Source of the DNA: Chloroflexota bacterium
GTDB taxonomy: Archaea > Iainarchaeota > Iainarchaeia > Iainarchaeales > GCA-2688035
Reading direction: 5' to 3'
Length of the DNA stretch: 36,186 nucleotides
NCBI GenBank assembly: GCA_017610335.1
Contig: JAFCCG010000011.1
Coordinates: 1 to 36,186, forward strand
The notes under the pieces are model-generated. The model was not told the DNA's origin. It worked only from the letters and a program-made list of their open reading frames with translations, and did no database searches. The position numbers were made by a program, and so were the translations under genes. This document shows, in pieces, positions 2,600 through 15,791 of this stretch. How positions within the stretch are numbered: position 1 is the first letter of the stretch; every line of letters begins with the position of its first letter.

Positions 2600-4090
2600 C
2601 TATGCCTTAAGCAAGTCAAGTAACAGGGCGGCTGTCCAGGTCATTTTATCAGAACCCAATGGCCTGCCTGCCCTTCCTTTTTCTGAAGCGATTGGTGCAA
2701 AGTATTCGTCAAATAAGGGCATTTGGAATTCTCTTGCAAGGGCTTTTTTTATTTCTTCTGCACTGGCGCCTTCTTTTCTAAGTGCTTTTTTTCGTAAATC
2801 AACCCTTTTCCAAATTCCTGAATCCGGTTTTTTTCTTACTCTACTCCAGCCAATTGCTGCAAAGCCTGAATCCCAAAGCCATCCATGACCGTATTGTGTT
2901 TTTGAAGGCGTTGTAAAGGATTCATTAAAGCTGTTGTATTCCATTAGTGAAGCTGCAAGGCTTTCAAGTTCTTTCACTCCTTTAAATCCTTGTGCAATCA
3001 ATTTAATTGTTTGCTCTCTGACTTTTTTTGCAAGTGCTTTATCATAATTTTCCAGTCCTTTTGTAACAATCCAGTTTCGCACAGGCCAAATAGGTCCTTT
3101 TGCATATCTAACAGGATTAAATTTTTCTGAGTCAAGCGGAACGCTTGGAACCATAAATCCATTTTTTGGATTGAATTCTTTTTCATTTTTCAAATGCTTT
3201 ATCAATTCTTTTGCCTGTTCTTTGGAGGCAATGTTTCCAAAAAGCGGTGCAAAAGAATGTACTGTTGCAATTTTTATCAGCTTATTTCCTTTTATATCAA
3301 AAGAATAAAATAATCCTGTTTCTTCGTCGTATAATTTGTTTCTTATTGTCTTTTCAACTTTTAATGCAAGTTTTTCATTTAGCTTTTTTTCTTTTTCCAA
3401 AGAAAGAGCTTCTGCAATCAATGCCATTGAGGAAAGAGATTTTTTGAAAATGCAGTTGAACAAAATGTCTTGTACAACAAAAGGACATTCTTTCCAAAGT
3501 TTTTTTTGATCATATTTTTTTGTAACAAAAAAACCAACCAATCTTCCATAAGCTTCATAATCTTTTTCTTTTGGTCTCTGGCCCTTGGCAACGTAAACCG
3601 CGTCCTTTCTTTTTTTGATTCTTTGCTCAAAACCTTTTGCCCTAAGTTCTTCAAGTGTTCTTTTAATCAGCTCATCATAGCATGGTGTATTATCAGAGCC
3701 GGTTGCCCATGGGTGAAAAACGCTTGCAAGTCCTTCTCCTTTAGGGTCTCGTTCGGTTAAAAGAAAATTATGGTACTGCTTTAGTTTTGGATAAAATTCT
3801 TTGAGAAATGGAACAAGATCTTCCTTGTTTTGTGAGTTGTTAAACACTTCCCACAATGCAAAACCAATGTTTGGCGGCTGTGTAATTCCGGATGTTCTGA
3901 TTTTACTGTTTCCGCTTATTTTTACAGTAACTCCCCATTCTTCTTCATCAGGGCTGTAACCTGTTTGTCCTGGTACAAACCTTATCTGTGGCAGCATTCC
4001 ATTGCTCCACTGTGATTCAAGAACTGAAGCAATTTCATTCATTGCTCTTTTTTCACCGTATGTAAGAACCATGTTATACAAAAAGTCCAT
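2600..4090 (-). CDS. GH63-like glycoside hydrolase (mannosyl/glucosylglycerate hydrolase-like), rearranged
   Basis: The 496-residue protein matches the (alpha/alpha)6-barrel family of mannosylglycerate/glucosylglycerate hydrolases: SQWSNGMLPQIRF (residues 26-38), TSGITQPP (66-73), HPWATGSDNTPCYD (126-139), KGPIWPVRNW (331-340) and the C-terminal end LGSDKMTWTAALLLDLL (478-494). These enzymes hydrolyse small alpha-glucosides or mannosides in the cytoplasm. In relatives, a segment like TxPxxxYPHxWxWDxAFxAIGL precedes the NGMxPHIxF motif near the N-terminus. Here the equivalent, TTPSKTQYGHGWLWDSGFAA (residues 393-412), lies near the C-terminus, and the protein starts directly at the next helix. 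An in-frame TGA immediately precedes the ATG, so the N-terminus is not simply mis-called. It converges with the pyruvyl-transferase-like gene, 13 bp apart. The substrate cannot be named. Confidence 0.75.
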   Translation of the reverse strand: MDFLYNMVLTYGEKRAMNEIASVLESQWSNGMLPQIRFVPGQTGYSPDEEEWGVTVKISGNSKIRTSGITQPPNIGFALWEVFNNSQNKEDLVPFLKEFYPKLKQYHNFLLTERDPKGEGLASVFHPWATGSDNTPCYDELIKRTLEELRAKGFEQRIKKRKDAVYVAKGQRPKEKDYEAYGRLVGFFVTKKYDQKKLWKECPFVVQDILFNCIFKKSLSSMALIAEALSLEKEKKLNEKLALKVEKTIRNKLYDEETGLFYSFDIKGNKLIKIATVHSFAPLFGNIASKEQAKELIKHLKNEKEFNPKNGFMVPSVPLDSEKFNPVRYAKGPIWPVRNWIVTKGLENYDKALAKKVREQTIKLIAQGFKGVKELESLAASLMEYNSFNESFTTPSKTQYGHGWLWDSGFAAIGWSRVRKKPDSGIWKRVDLRKKALRKEGASAEEIKKALAREFQMPLFDEYFAPIASEKGRAGRPLGSDKMTWTAALLLDLLKA

Positions 4091-5870: not shown

Positions 5871-6287
5871 TTACTTCCTGAATTTTCTGTCAACTTCGCT
5901 TATTAGAATATCGCAAGCTGCTTTAATGCTTTCAAGCTGTTTTACAATTCTTTCTTTTTCCAATTCAATTTCTTGAACAGTTTCATATGGCTCAATTGCG
6001 TCTCTTAGCATTCCACCGTCAACATAAGCATAAGGGTGCGAATCCATTTTTTTGGCAATTCTTTTAACCATTTTGCCAAGCCAAAGGTTCATTTCGTCTT
6101 TTACTTGGCCTTTAATCTGCTTGCCAGAACTTAAATGTTTTCTAAGCATGTTAATAATTGTTGCTTTTGGAAAAGGCAAATCATCTCTGTCATTTTCAAC
6201 CTCTTCTTCAACAATTTTTTCTTCTGTTCCAGGCATTTCTTTAGCCTTCTCAGCACTTGTTTCTGTATCCTTATTTTCATTAGTCAT
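5871..6287 (-). CDS. Histone-fold protein with C-terminal coiled coil
   Basis: The 138-residue protein has an acidic, disordered N-terminal tail (residues 1-35), then a histone-fold-like region. DLPFPKATIINMLRKH (36-51) resembles the alpha-1 start of archaeal histones. A long central helix follows (KDEMNLWLGKMVKRIAKKMD, 63-82), then a short loop and helix (YVDGGMLRDAIEPYE). A heptad-like C-terminal helix runs IELEKERIVKQLESIKAACD and on to the end (107-138). This layout fits histone-fold proteins with added coiled coils described in recent surveys of prokaryotic histones; the match is by eye. The start at 6287 is chosen because GGGGAG lies nine nt upstream; the earlier ATG at 6314 has no such site. 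DNA binding or bridging is inferred. Confidence 0.6.
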   Translation of the reverse strand: MTNENKDTETSAEKAKEMPGTEEKIVEEEVENDRDDLPFPKATIINMLRKHLSSGKQIKGQVKDEMNLWLGKMVKRIAKKMDSHPYAYVDGGMLRDAIEPYETVQEIELEKERIVKQLESIKAACDILISEVDRKFRK

Positions 6288-6452
6288 AATACTAGCTCCC
6301 CTAAATTTTCCCAATTAGCATTAAAAATTAAGTAGATATCTTATGCAACATTCAGATTTTAAAGCCTTTCCCTGCATAAAACAGACTGTTTATTTTGTTA
6401 ATTTCTTAAAAAAGCTCTAAAAAGTCACTTTTACTGCAAAAATCAGGCATTT

Positions 6453-7553
6453 TCACTTTCCAATAAAATGCATGTGGCTTAGGATATCTTTTATTGCCAC
6501 TTTTTTTACAGTTATAACCGAATCTCCTGCTCCGCTAAAAATAAGCAAATCTTTTTTATTCAAATCAAGAATTGCTTCTGAAGGAAATATAACGTTGTTT
6601 ACAAATCCCTTTTTTTCATAGTTTTTTTTAGGACTGAACAAAGGGTGTGTTTTTGGACTTCTTGCAATTATTTTTCCAGGATTTTTTTTGTCCAAAAGCA
6701 CTACACCTGCACTGTAAACATTTTTGTTATTCCTGTCTTTTTTCACGCCGTGGTATATTTCAAGCCAGCCTTCCTTAATTTTTATCGGAGTTGTTCCTGC
6801 TCCAATCCTTTCACTTTCCCAGCAATTTTCCCTTGGCTGAATTATGCTTTTTTCTTCCCCCCAATATTTTAAATCAGGTGAATGCGAAATCCAAATAGAG
6901 GGCTTGCTGAATTCAAAAAAGCCCTCTGGTCTGTGCAATGCAACATATTTTCCCCTAATTTTTTCAGGAAAAAGACTCACGTCCTTATTTTGCTCTCTGA
7001 AAATTATTCCATGTCTTTTCCAGTTCCTTAACCTGTTTGAAACAGCCAGCGAAGTGCAAACACCTTCATGTAGTGAAATCGAAACATAGGTCATAATGAA
7101 ATTTCTGCCAATTTTTACAATGCTTGGATCCTCTACTCCAAACTGCCCTTCTTTATGGGTTCCTGTAAAAACAGGCAGCTCTTCAATTTTTTCAACGTTA
7201 AAACCACTCTTGTCAAGTAGAATTCTCCTAAAATTTGACGAGGTCTTAAGCCTGCATGTTTTGTTCTCCAAATAGAATACATTTTCTTTTTCGCCAACAA
7301 TCTTTGTTTTGCTTATTTTTCTGCTGCTTAATTTGTAGCCGTTGTTTTTCACATCCTTGTCTGAAACAATCATCGGACATTTAATGCTTGTTCCAATATT
7401 GGCTTTTGGCATTTCCGCAACCCTTGCAAAAAGCACTATTTTTTTGTCAGACCACCTTATGGCTGCAGGATTCAGCACGCCCATAACAGCCCAGCCCCTT
7501 ACCGAGGGTTTGACGTCCTTTGGTGTTAGCAAAATCTTTTCCTCAACCAGCAT
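6453..7553 (-). CDS. GH130-family glycoside phosphorylase-like protein
   Basis: Features of the five-bladed beta-propeller GH130 family are present: ILLTPKDVKPS near the N-terminus, GVLNPAAIRW, FGVEDPSIVKIG (the ED-P motif), TYVSIS, SLFPEKIRGKYVALHRPE, IWISHSPDLKYW, RIGAGTTPIKIKEGWLEIYHG and FPSEAIL. Family enzymes reversibly phosphorolyse beta-mannosides, releasing mannose 1-phosphate, in the cytoplasm; some members are hydrolases. The open frame begins at 7610, but the preceding 19 residues (hydrophobic LIFLVFLML) are atypical. The ATG at 7553 sits 30-40 nt downstream of an AATTAAAAG TATA-like element (7583-7592), so it is preferred, giving 366 residues. With the GH63-like enzyme and the glycan genes it suggests mannose-containing glycan or compatible-solute metabolism. 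Linkage specificity cannot be told. Confidence 0.75.
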   Translation of the reverse strand: MLVEEKILLTPKDVKPSVRGWAVMGVLNPAAIRWSDKKIVLFARVAEMPKANIGTSIKCPMIVSDKDVKNNGYKLSSRKISKTKIVGEKENVFYLENKTCRLKTSSNFRRILLDKSGFNVEKIEELPVFTGTHKEGQFGVEDPSIVKIGRNFIMTYVSISLHEGVCTSLAVSNRLRNWKRHGIIFREQNKDVSLFPEKIRGKYVALHRPEGFFEFSKPSIWISHSPDLKYWGEEKSIIQPRENCWESERIGAGTTPIKIKEGWLEIYHGVKKDRNNKNVYSAGVVLLDKKNPGKIIARSPKTHPLFSPKKNYEKKGFVNNVIFPSEAILDLNKKDLLIFSGAGDSVITVKKVAIKDILSHMHFIGK

Positions 7554-7620
7554 TAAAAAAACCAAAAAAATAAGGCATTCCAAGCTTTTAATTCTTTTGT
7601 CAGACAACATTCTGCCGATA

Positions 7621-11607: not shown

Positions 11608-11619
11608 GATGGGCGGACT
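11608..11619 (+). repeat. Dispersed repeat partial copy S2b, abutting the MNT gene start
   Basis: GATGGGCGGACT matches the centre of the 20-mer repeat and ends within the TTG start codon of the nucleotidyltransferase gene. The GAGG end of the repeat is replaced by coding sequence. Confidence 0.5.
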
Positions 11620-12176
11620 TGGTTGATATTGATTTTCTTAATGAAGGCGCATTTCGACTATTGGAGTTTCTTTTGGATAAGAAATACTATTTGCGAGAGC
11701 TTGCTGAAAAAACAGGTCTTGCTCCAAGTAGCGTTCACAAAATAATGGCAAAACTTGAGCTAAAAAAAATTGTTGTGGTAACAAAACAAAAGAACCGAAA
11801 AATTTTCAGTCTGAATTATAATAGCCCTCTAGCAACAAGTATACTGAGAACTATTTTTGTGCACGAAATCACAATGGCTAGGGCATTTAAAAACCTGGTC
11901 AAATTACAGCCTTTAGGCGTTTACTTGTTTGGCAGTGCTGCTACTGGAAAAATGACTGGTGACAGCGATGTTGATTTGGCAATTTATTTTAAAAAAAAGC
12001 CAGATTCGCTTTTAATAAGCCGGATTAAAAGAGAGTTGAGTAACCAGCTAAAAAGAGATGTACAGTTAATTACGTTGACCAAAAGCAAAGTTGATTCGAT
12101 GGAAAAGGAGAAAACAGAGTTGTTGCAGCAAATAAGACTCAAATCAATTGTCTTAGAAGGTGAAGAACTTGATTGA
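11619..12176 (+). CDS. Winged-helix plus MNT-type nucleotidyltransferase (antitoxin of MNT-HEPN pair)
   Basis: The 185-residue protein has an N-terminal winged helix (FRLLEFLLDKKYYLRELAEK, then TGLAPSSVHKIMAKLELKKI, residues 12-51). A minimal nucleotidyltransferase follows: LFGSAATGKMTGDSDVDLAI (103-122), with GS at 105-106 and the metal-binding aspartates D117 and D119. MNT proteins of this kind pair with HEPN ribonucleases, neutralising them in known systems by adding AMP residues. The fused DNA-binding domain suggests it also represses its own operon. The only plausible start is TTG at 11619, inside a repeat copy and without a clear ribosome site, which is unusual. The next gene overlaps its end by eight bp. 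The pairing call is firm; the biochemical mode is by analogy. Confidence 0.8.
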   Translation: MVDIDFLNEGAFRLLEFLLDKKYYLRELAEKTGLAPSSVHKIMAKLELKKIVVVTKQKNRKIFSLNYNSPLATSILRTIFVHEITMARAFKNLVKLQPLGVYLFGSAATGKMTGDSDVDLAIYFKKKPDSLLISRIKRELSNQLKRDVQLITLTKSKVDSMEKEKTELLQQIRLKSIVLEGEELD

Positions 12177-12609
12177 GGTTGACGATTGCTTTGAGAAAGG
12201 TTTACTTAAGAAAACTACTAAAAGTAAGAGGCTTGCATTGCAAGATCTTGCACAAGCTGAATTTTTTCTGAATGAAAGCTTTGATTTAATAAACATCAAA
12301 AAGGACGAGATGGCTGCAATAGCGATGTACAATGCGGCTTTTCATGCAGCAAGAGCACTACTTTATTTGCATGGGGTAAAGGAAAAAAGCCACTATTGCC
12401 TACAGAAATACTTGGAAGAAAAATTCAGCAAAAAGGGAATGTTCAGCTCAGAGGACTTATCCTTATTTGATTTGTTGAGGGGGCTAAGACAGGAAGTTCA
12501 ATATAATGTCACGAGAGTGAAGTTTGAGGAAAACCTAAGCGAATTATATAACAAAGCAGAAAAATTCATTGAAAAAGCAAAAGACATCGTTAAATCCGAG
12601 AACTCTTAA
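12169..12609 (+). CDS. HEPN-domain protein (toxin partner of the MNT gene)
   Basis: The 146-residue, mostly helical protein matches the COG1895/PF05168 HEPN group. ALQDLAQAEFFLNESFDLIN (helix 1) is followed by MAAIAMYNAAFHAARALLYL, HGVKEKSHYCLQKYL and DLLRGLRQEVQYN. The catalytic Rx4-6H of HEPN ribonucleases would fall in this last segment, but no histidine follows the arginines (RGLRQEVQYN), so nuclease activity is doubtful. TTG at 12169 is preferred as start because AGGTGA ends five nt before it; GTG at 12160 overlaps that site. The frame overlaps the MNT stop, implying translational coupling. Confidence 0.75.
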   Translation: MIEVDDCFEKGLLKKTTKSKRLALQDLAQAEFFLNESFDLINIKKDEMAAIAMYNAAFHAARALLYLHGVKEKSHYCLQKYLEEKFSKKGMFSSEDLSLFDLLRGLRQEVQYNVTRVKFEENLSELYNKAEKFIEKAKDIVKSENS

Positions 12610-12741: not shown

Positions 12742-13968
12742 ATGGTTTCAAGATTGGATGTTTTTTTGACTGTTGGTCTTTATCCTGAGCTTTCCTGTGC
12801 GAACATTGTCAAAAAAATAGGCAAGGCACAGACATCTTACAATGCAACATACAATCTTCTCCAAGAACTAAAAGCCGATGGATTAGTTGTGGAGAAGAAA
12901 GAATCCTTTAGTGCTTCAAAAACAAAAAAGGCGCACATGCTTCTTAGCTTGGTTTATTTTTGCTTCAAAAACGGGATTGATTACAACAAAGTTATTTCAG
13001 AAAAAAGTGCCGAGTTTGTCAAAATGGGTTTGGAAAAGGGTCAAATAAATGGTTTGCCTTTTGATGCAAAAACAGTCAGGAGAATTGTTGGCCAGCTTTC
13101 GAAAAACGGTTTTGCTGTTGTTGAGTCAAGAAAGCCTTTTTTGTGCAAAATTGTGCCATCGCAGTTTACTCAATTGCTTGTGGAATACTTTTTTGGGAAA
13201 ACTAAGGTTAAATGCTCTTTGCTGTTGGATTGTCTGGATGAACGGTTTGTTAATTCCAAGCTTGAAAAACAGTTTTCCTTATACAAGAGCCTTGAAAAAG
13301 AAAAATTCGCCTTTGATGAAATAGGGTTCATTTACATAAGTCTTTCTCTTGAAGGGAACACCCTTACATTATCAGAAACTGAAAAGATAATCAAGCAAAA
13401 CATTGCTCCTGCTTCAAAACCATTCAAAGACGCGCAACAGGTGCTTGATTATAAAAAAGGTCTTGACGGGTTTATTTTTTCCAGCATTGCAATCACACAA
13501 GAATCGATTCTTGAATTTCACAGAACATCAATGAATTCTTTGGCTACAGGCGCAGGCCGATTTAGAACAGAAAATGTCCGGATAAAAGGCAATTCTAACT
13601 TTAAAACTCCTGACTGGAAAGAGCTTCCTGACCTATTAAAAGGTTTTTTCAAAAACGCAAACATCTGGGAAAAGAAAAAAGTTTCTGCTGCCGAAATAGT
13701 TGAAAAAGCTGCCTTTTTGCACAACGAATTCCAGCGCATCCACCCGTTCATTGATGGAAACAGCAGGACATCAAGGGCAATATTCCTAAAGGCACTAATC
13801 CAAAACAATTTTCCTCTAATAAAAATACCAGTGGGGTTTTCCGACCAATACATGAAACTCACAAAACTAAGCGAAAAAAGAGACGACAAAAAGTTCGCCT
13901 TCCTGATGAAACAGATAGCCCTAGAAAACCTAAAACACATAATAAAAAAACTTGAATACGAATTCTGA
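12742..13968 (+). CDS. Fic-domain protein with N-terminal winged helix (AMPylator-like)
   Basis: The 408-residue protein has winged-helix-like segments at about 1-60 and 85-140, then a Fic domain. The autoinhibitory motif SLSLEG (S200, E204, G205) fits the [S/T]xxxE[G/N] signature placed N-terminal to the Fic core (class II). The active-site loop is HPFIDGNSRTSR (334-345), matching HPFxDGN-G-R with Ser in place of the usual Gly. The flap region around RFRTENVRIKG (273-283) is present. Fic enzymes usually transfer AMP to Ser/Thr/Tyr of target proteins. It is a stand-alone gene flanked by repeat copies S3 and S4. Catalytic His334, Asp338 and Arg345 are intact, so activity is likely, held back by the inhibitory glutamate. 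The target is unknown. Confidence 0.88.
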   Translation: MVSRLDVFLTVGLYPELSCANIVKKIGKAQTSYNATYNLLQELKADGLVVEKKESFSASKTKKAHMLLSLVYFCFKNGIDYNKVISEKSAEFVKMGLEKGQINGLPFDAKTVRRIVGQLSKNGFAVVESRKPFLCKIVPSQFTQLLVEYFFGKTKVKCSLLLDCLDERFVNSKLEKQFSLYKSLEKEKFAFDEIGFIYISLSLEGNTLTLSETEKIIKQNIAPASKPFKDAQQVLDYKKGLDGFIFSSIAITQESILEFHRTSMNSLATGAGRFRTENVRIKGNSNFKTPDWKELPDLLKGFFKNANIWEKKKVSAAEIVEKAAFLHNEFQRIHPFIDGNSRTSRAIFLKALIQNNFPLIKIPVGFSDQYMKLTKLSEKRDDKKFAFLMKQIALENLKHIIKKLEYEF

Positions 13969-15614: not shown

Positions 15615-15791
15615 ATGGGAGACTCATTAGTAGTTGGGAGTAAAGTAAAGGACGCAGTTAAGGCAGCAGGATGCAACTGTGCAGGCGACTTAACAGACGC
15701 TTTGAGCGCAGAGGTCGCAGGATTAATAACAAAAGCTGCTGGAAGAGCTAAAGCCAACGGAAGAAAAACCGTTAGGGCTGCAGATCTCTAA
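15615..15791 (+). CDS. Histone with short third helix (DUF1931/face-to-face-like)
   Basis: The 58-residue protein has a short N-terminal strand SLVVGSKVKDAVKAAG, a long central helix (LTDALSAEVAGLITKAAGRA, residues 26-45), and the histone loop NGRKTVRAADL (48-58), matching GRKTIKAEDI of canonical archaeal histones. The chain stops right after ADL, so helix alpha-3 is almost absent. This resembles the truncated histones of bacteria such as Bdellovibrio and the face-to-face histone group of recent surveys, and differs from nucleosome-forming HMf-type histones. The VVGSKVK N-terminus supports that group. Two cysteines (20 and 22) are unusual for an archaeal histone. A strong promoter and ribosome site suggest high expression. 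It likely binds DNA as a dimer or tetramer. Confidence 0.8.
   Translation: MGDSLVVGSKVKDAVKAAGCNCAGDLTDALSAEVAGLITKAAGRAKANGRKTVRAADL

Follow-up and report, generated by a model that had tools for sequence, protein, structure and literature searches.

Does the open reading frame at positions 5871 to 6287 encode a histone and, if so, of which kind and with what likely mode of action on DNA? It lies in the window, i.e., the whole stretch of 36,186 nucleotides that was analyzed, from the genome of a Diapherotrites (Iainarchaeota) archaeon. The elements that we delineated in and around this gene are as follows.

5871..6287, minus strand: CC-histone gene, 138 aa, stop codon included
6288..6330, minus strand: upstream region with the ribosome-binding-like site AGGGGAG
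6180..6287, minus strand: disordered acidic N-terminal tail, residues 1-36 (from pLDDT and charge count)
5982..6179, minus strand: histone fold, residues 37-102, with helices 41-51, 60-82 and 91-102 (from AlphaFold2 and fold search)
5874..5981, minus strand: C-terminal heptad helix, residues 103-138 (helix 104-137), likely a tetramerization coiled coil (from AlphaFold2 and heptads)
6099..6122, minus strand: basic motif K56-Q-I-K59-x-x-V-K63, candidate DNA-contact residues by their spacing to published CC-histone residues
5269..5829, plus strand: ArkI-like kinase (COG2112 type) of 186 aa, in convergent orientation to the CC-histone gene (context, outside the histone)
15615..15791, plus strand: short alpha3-type (face-to-face-like) histone, 58 aa (context)

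The reading frame begins with an ATG, with AGGGGAG a few bases upstream, and differs from its nearest relatives at codon positions 1/2/3 by 5/0/19 and 3/0/36 over a 102-codon core. Since these differences are almost all at third positions and the gene is present in 49 of 54 related genomes, it is a real coding gene under purifying selection. It forms a single-gene operon: no upstream neighbor family occurs in more than eight of 59 loci, and the kinase downstream is convergent.

AlphaFold2 modeling of the monomer gave helices at residues 41-51, 60-82 and 91-102, followed by an uninterrupted 34-residue fourth helix (104-137), with a mean pLDDT of 78 overall, values of 84-96 in each block of ten residues from residue 41 onward and mostly above 90 in the four helices. 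No strands were assigned in this monomer model of the CC histone; histone strands form between chains. In a fold search with the model, all 50 top PDB matches were to histone-fold proteins. The NF-YB-type subunit of the CCAAT-binding complex ranked first; H2B, Dpb4, NC2 and an Asgard histone, HHoB (2.0 Å rmsd over 67 columns, TMt 0.77), were also among them, and Foldseek E-values were modest (best 1.5e-3). The 66-residue fold block, which starts with LPFPKATIINMLRKH (residues 37-51), shows zero length variation in 45 relatives. Across the same relatives, the a/d heptad positions of the last helix are 80% hydrophobic, and the heptad pattern stands out from shuffled sequences for the family profile (P=0.003) and borders on doing so for the single sequence (P=0.057). 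The tail of residues 1-36 contains 14 D/E vs 5 K/R (net −9), and residues 1-30 are predicted to be disordered (pLDDT <50). The first-pass annotation had read a histone fold, an acidic N-terminal tail and a C-terminal heptad helix from the sequence and had proposed structure prediction as a check; our data support all three parts of this anatomy, the prediction being that of a monomer.

It had also proposed a profile search against histone-fold families. Pfam and NCBIfam searches gave no histone match for the protein itself, and a weak signal was seen among its relatives, seven of 45 of which touch PF00808 (best E 1.5e-4). The five CC members of the phylum that were listed fall under the PF00808 cut-off, the best with 20.7 bits vs 21.4. 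Likewise, hhalign comparison with canonical histones was weak (E 0.18), and PDB sequence searches yielded no meaningful match. No relative was found in viral contigs. Matches to Pfam OVT1 and PDXDC1-like_cen were below cut-off, probably reflect helical composition, and were discarded.

The architecture fits a kind of protein that is already known, the coiled-coil (CC) histones described by Schwab et al. in 2024 (PMC11390915), which combine a histone fold with a long C-terminal helix and often negatively charged disordered tails, and for which Iainarchaeota are listed. The candidate DNA residues published for this class, R32, K35, R45 and K49 (PMC11390915), are spaced by 3, 10 and 4 residues, a spacing that fits positions 46, 49, 59 and 63 here with an offset that is our own mapping. 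Positions 49, 59 and 63 are basic in our protein and in nearly all relatives; at position 46, our protein has N and divergent members have R. Based on anatomy, phylum and residue spacing, we consider it probable that the gene encodes a CC histone of a Diapherotrites archaeon, which would form handshake dimers, tetramerize via its coiled coil and bridge DNA. HMfC of Methanothermus fervidus (E3GZL0), a CC histone, bridges DNA in vitro (PMC11390915); in a comparison by description, HMfC and its class share with our protein the histone fold and the long helix after alpha3, and acidic disordered tails are common in the class, but HMfC has none.

Other histone types were compared as well. Methanococcales (Mc) histones such as MJ1647 also have a C-terminal tetramerization extension and bridge DNA (PMC10516927), as we would predict for the protein studied here, but their extension consists of two short helices rather than one continuous 34-residue helix, and Schwab et al. 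note little sequence similarity between the Mc and CC classes (PMC11390915). RdgC histones likewise end in a large helix, for which a tetrameric bundle is predicted. Their genes occupy an invariable operon next to those of an RdgC-like protein and a membrane protein; in a comparison limited to the conserved neighbor families of the CC gene, no such pair was seen. Nucleosomal archaeal histones (HMfB, and one encoded in the same genome) share the three-helix histone fold, whereas the CC histone lacks their RxTxxxxD motif, has a longer loop between alpha1 and alpha2 and adds an acidic tail and a long fourth helix. In contrast to alpha3 or face-to-face histones, which are short with a truncated alpha3, it has a 12-residue alpha3 that leads into the long helix.

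By analogy with the published family, two chains would join in a histone handshake dimer, and two such dimers would then pair through a coiled coil of their 34-residue C-terminal helices, giving a tetramer with DNA faces at opposite ends. R49, K59 and K63, on the side formed by alpha1, loop 1 and the start of alpha2, would hold the DNA, so that one tetramer could connect either two DNA duplexes or two sites within the same duplex. The acidic tail would probably lie over the basic face and lower or tune DNA affinity, an idea of the family's authors (PMC11390915); such auto-inhibition, like bridging itself, is what we infer for the protein studied here. The first-pass annotation was right about the anatomy, and the likely mode of action that it suggested agrees with that of a class that has already been described.

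A histone fold can also serve in protein-protein adaptors such as NF-YB, NC2-beta or Dpb4, and the coiled coil could then recruit a partner while DNA is not organized at all. The best fold matches are indeed NF-YB and Dpb4-like subunits, the protein is acidic overall (pI 5.4), and the canonical RxTxxxxD motif in loop 2 and alpha3 is absent, with P85, Y86, Y88 and D90 invariant in its place. However, K56, K59 and K63 of the basic motif are invariant in 45 relatives, most genomes have a single copy, so that a homodimer is expected, and the closest described class bridges DNA (PMC11390915). We therefore regard an adaptor role as unlikely and favor a DNA-bridging CC histone.

This CC histone would act alongside other histones of the same cell. 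It had been suggested that, together with the short histone at 15615, the organism would have two non-canonical chromatin proteins, but the genome contains at least four histone genes, which fall into three classes: one nucleosomal (on contig C95), the CC gene and two nearly identical short alpha3-type genes. The second short copy (G000:C68:3324-3497) is 93% identical to that at 15615..15791, and the short histone matches 9F2C, 8FVX and 9QT0. In 14 of the 29 genomes that have both, the CC and short alpha3-type genes are located within 20 kb on the same contig, a count that includes non-independent cases due to shared ancestry. Whenever the two genes shared a contig, the distance between them was at most 50 kb, even on contigs of 0.5-1.2 Mb.

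The most conserved neighbor of the CC gene is the ArkI-like kinase. Of 58 loci, 45 (among L097-L153) showed it in the flanking sequence that was retrieved, always downstream of the CC gene and in tail-to-tail orientation, at distances from a slight overlap to ~5 kb. The second most conserved neighbor, present in 29 loci, looks like a chaperonin from its sequence. The kinase profile best finds TkArkI (7vnx, E 1.5e-21), and the protein has HGQ and DFE motifs; identification as a Bud32-type protein kinase was rejected, TkArkI being the best match and a separate Bud32 being encoded on contig C38. The persistent arrangement could suggest that the small kinase phosphorylates the histone tail and thereby switches DNA binding. 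Yet ArkI phosphorylates tRNA U47 (PMC9095486), which makes a conserved neighbor of this type weak evidence for histone phosphorylation and retained gene order the simpler reading. Moreover, family f4 and genome G073 have the histone without such a kinase, G013 shows only a weak kinase match, the two genes are ~109 kb apart in G018, and the Ser/Thr positions of the tail are not conserved among relatives. A functional histone-kinase pairing was rejected given the ArkI-type identity of the kinase and its absence from several lineages that retain the histone, and phosphorylation of the tail by this kinase appears very unlikely. Hardly more credible is a broader scheme, in which CC histones, short alpha3 histones and the ArkI-like kinase would constitute a loosely linked chromatin neighborhood, the tail, which is acidic in the majority of families and predominantly basic in one, would tune bridging, fused doublets would fix two unequal halves in one chain, and the kinase would modify the histone despite its ArkI ancestry. 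That the protein is an ordinary helical or coiled-coil protein merely resembling a histone, as the missing Pfam and NCBIfam matches might suggest, is the least probable explanation given the predicted fold, the exclusively histone-fold matches and the weak PF00808 signals in relatives.

Several further genes were noted in the window. The region 11619-12609 (plus strand) encodes a nucleotidyltransferase-domain protein and an overlapping HEPN-domain gene in an MNT/HEPN toxin-antitoxin layout, and is directly followed by a gene for a Fic/DOC-domain protein of 408 aa (12742-13968, plus strand). A glucosylglycerate-hydrolase-like glycosidase (2600-4090, minus strand) and a GH130 mannoside-phosphorylase-like protein (6453-7610, minus strand) are encoded near the CC gene in close relatives only.

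Conservation analysis showed that the CC gene is present in 23 of 25 good genomes of the phylum to which the window belongs; genomes of family f21 lack it and have nucleosomal histones. Most of the relatives that carry a name are Diapherotrites (Candidatus Iainarchaeota), among them the complete genome GW2011_AR10. More distant homologs occur in 13 of 15 genomes of a further phylum-level group, reached via ‘DPANN group archaeon’ RIFCSPHIGHO2_02_FULL_47_15. Three records titled Chloroflexota, Thaumarchaeota and Falkowbacteria (L098, L099 and L100) carry close relatives of the CC gene and its neighbors and look like misassigned bins.

At 13 loci (L131-L135, L137 and L139-L145) we found doublets, i.e., single chains of 240-288 residues with two complete CC units. 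Because all first units group in one clade (SH-aLRT 99) and all second units in another (SH-aLRT 96), in a tree of few columns, the doublets are likely to have a single origin. Structure modeling of a natural doublet shows both units with moderate confidence and weak fold matches, which is no proof of dimer geometry. The tails vary as well: of 45 relatives, 40 have a tail with a net negative charge and five (L146 and L149-L152) one with a net positive charge. These five all belong to family f17 and have a net negative C-terminal part instead. The main text of the CC-histone paper (PMC11390915) is silent on doublets and on basic-tailed members, and a wider paper search returned no mention of CC doublets, which is limited evidence for their novelty. 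In the papers searched, we likewise found no report of the near-universality of CC histones in one order, a single-origin doublet clade, a family with mostly basic tails, the linkage to alpha3 histones or the conserved tail-to-tail ArkI-like neighbor.

If our reading is true, almost all genomes of an order with reduced genomes encode a bridging histone in addition to a wrapping one, and bridging would be a core rather than an accessory chromatin function there. The natural doublets, together with the families with acidic or basic tails, provide ready variants for testing the roles of the fourth helix and of the tail.
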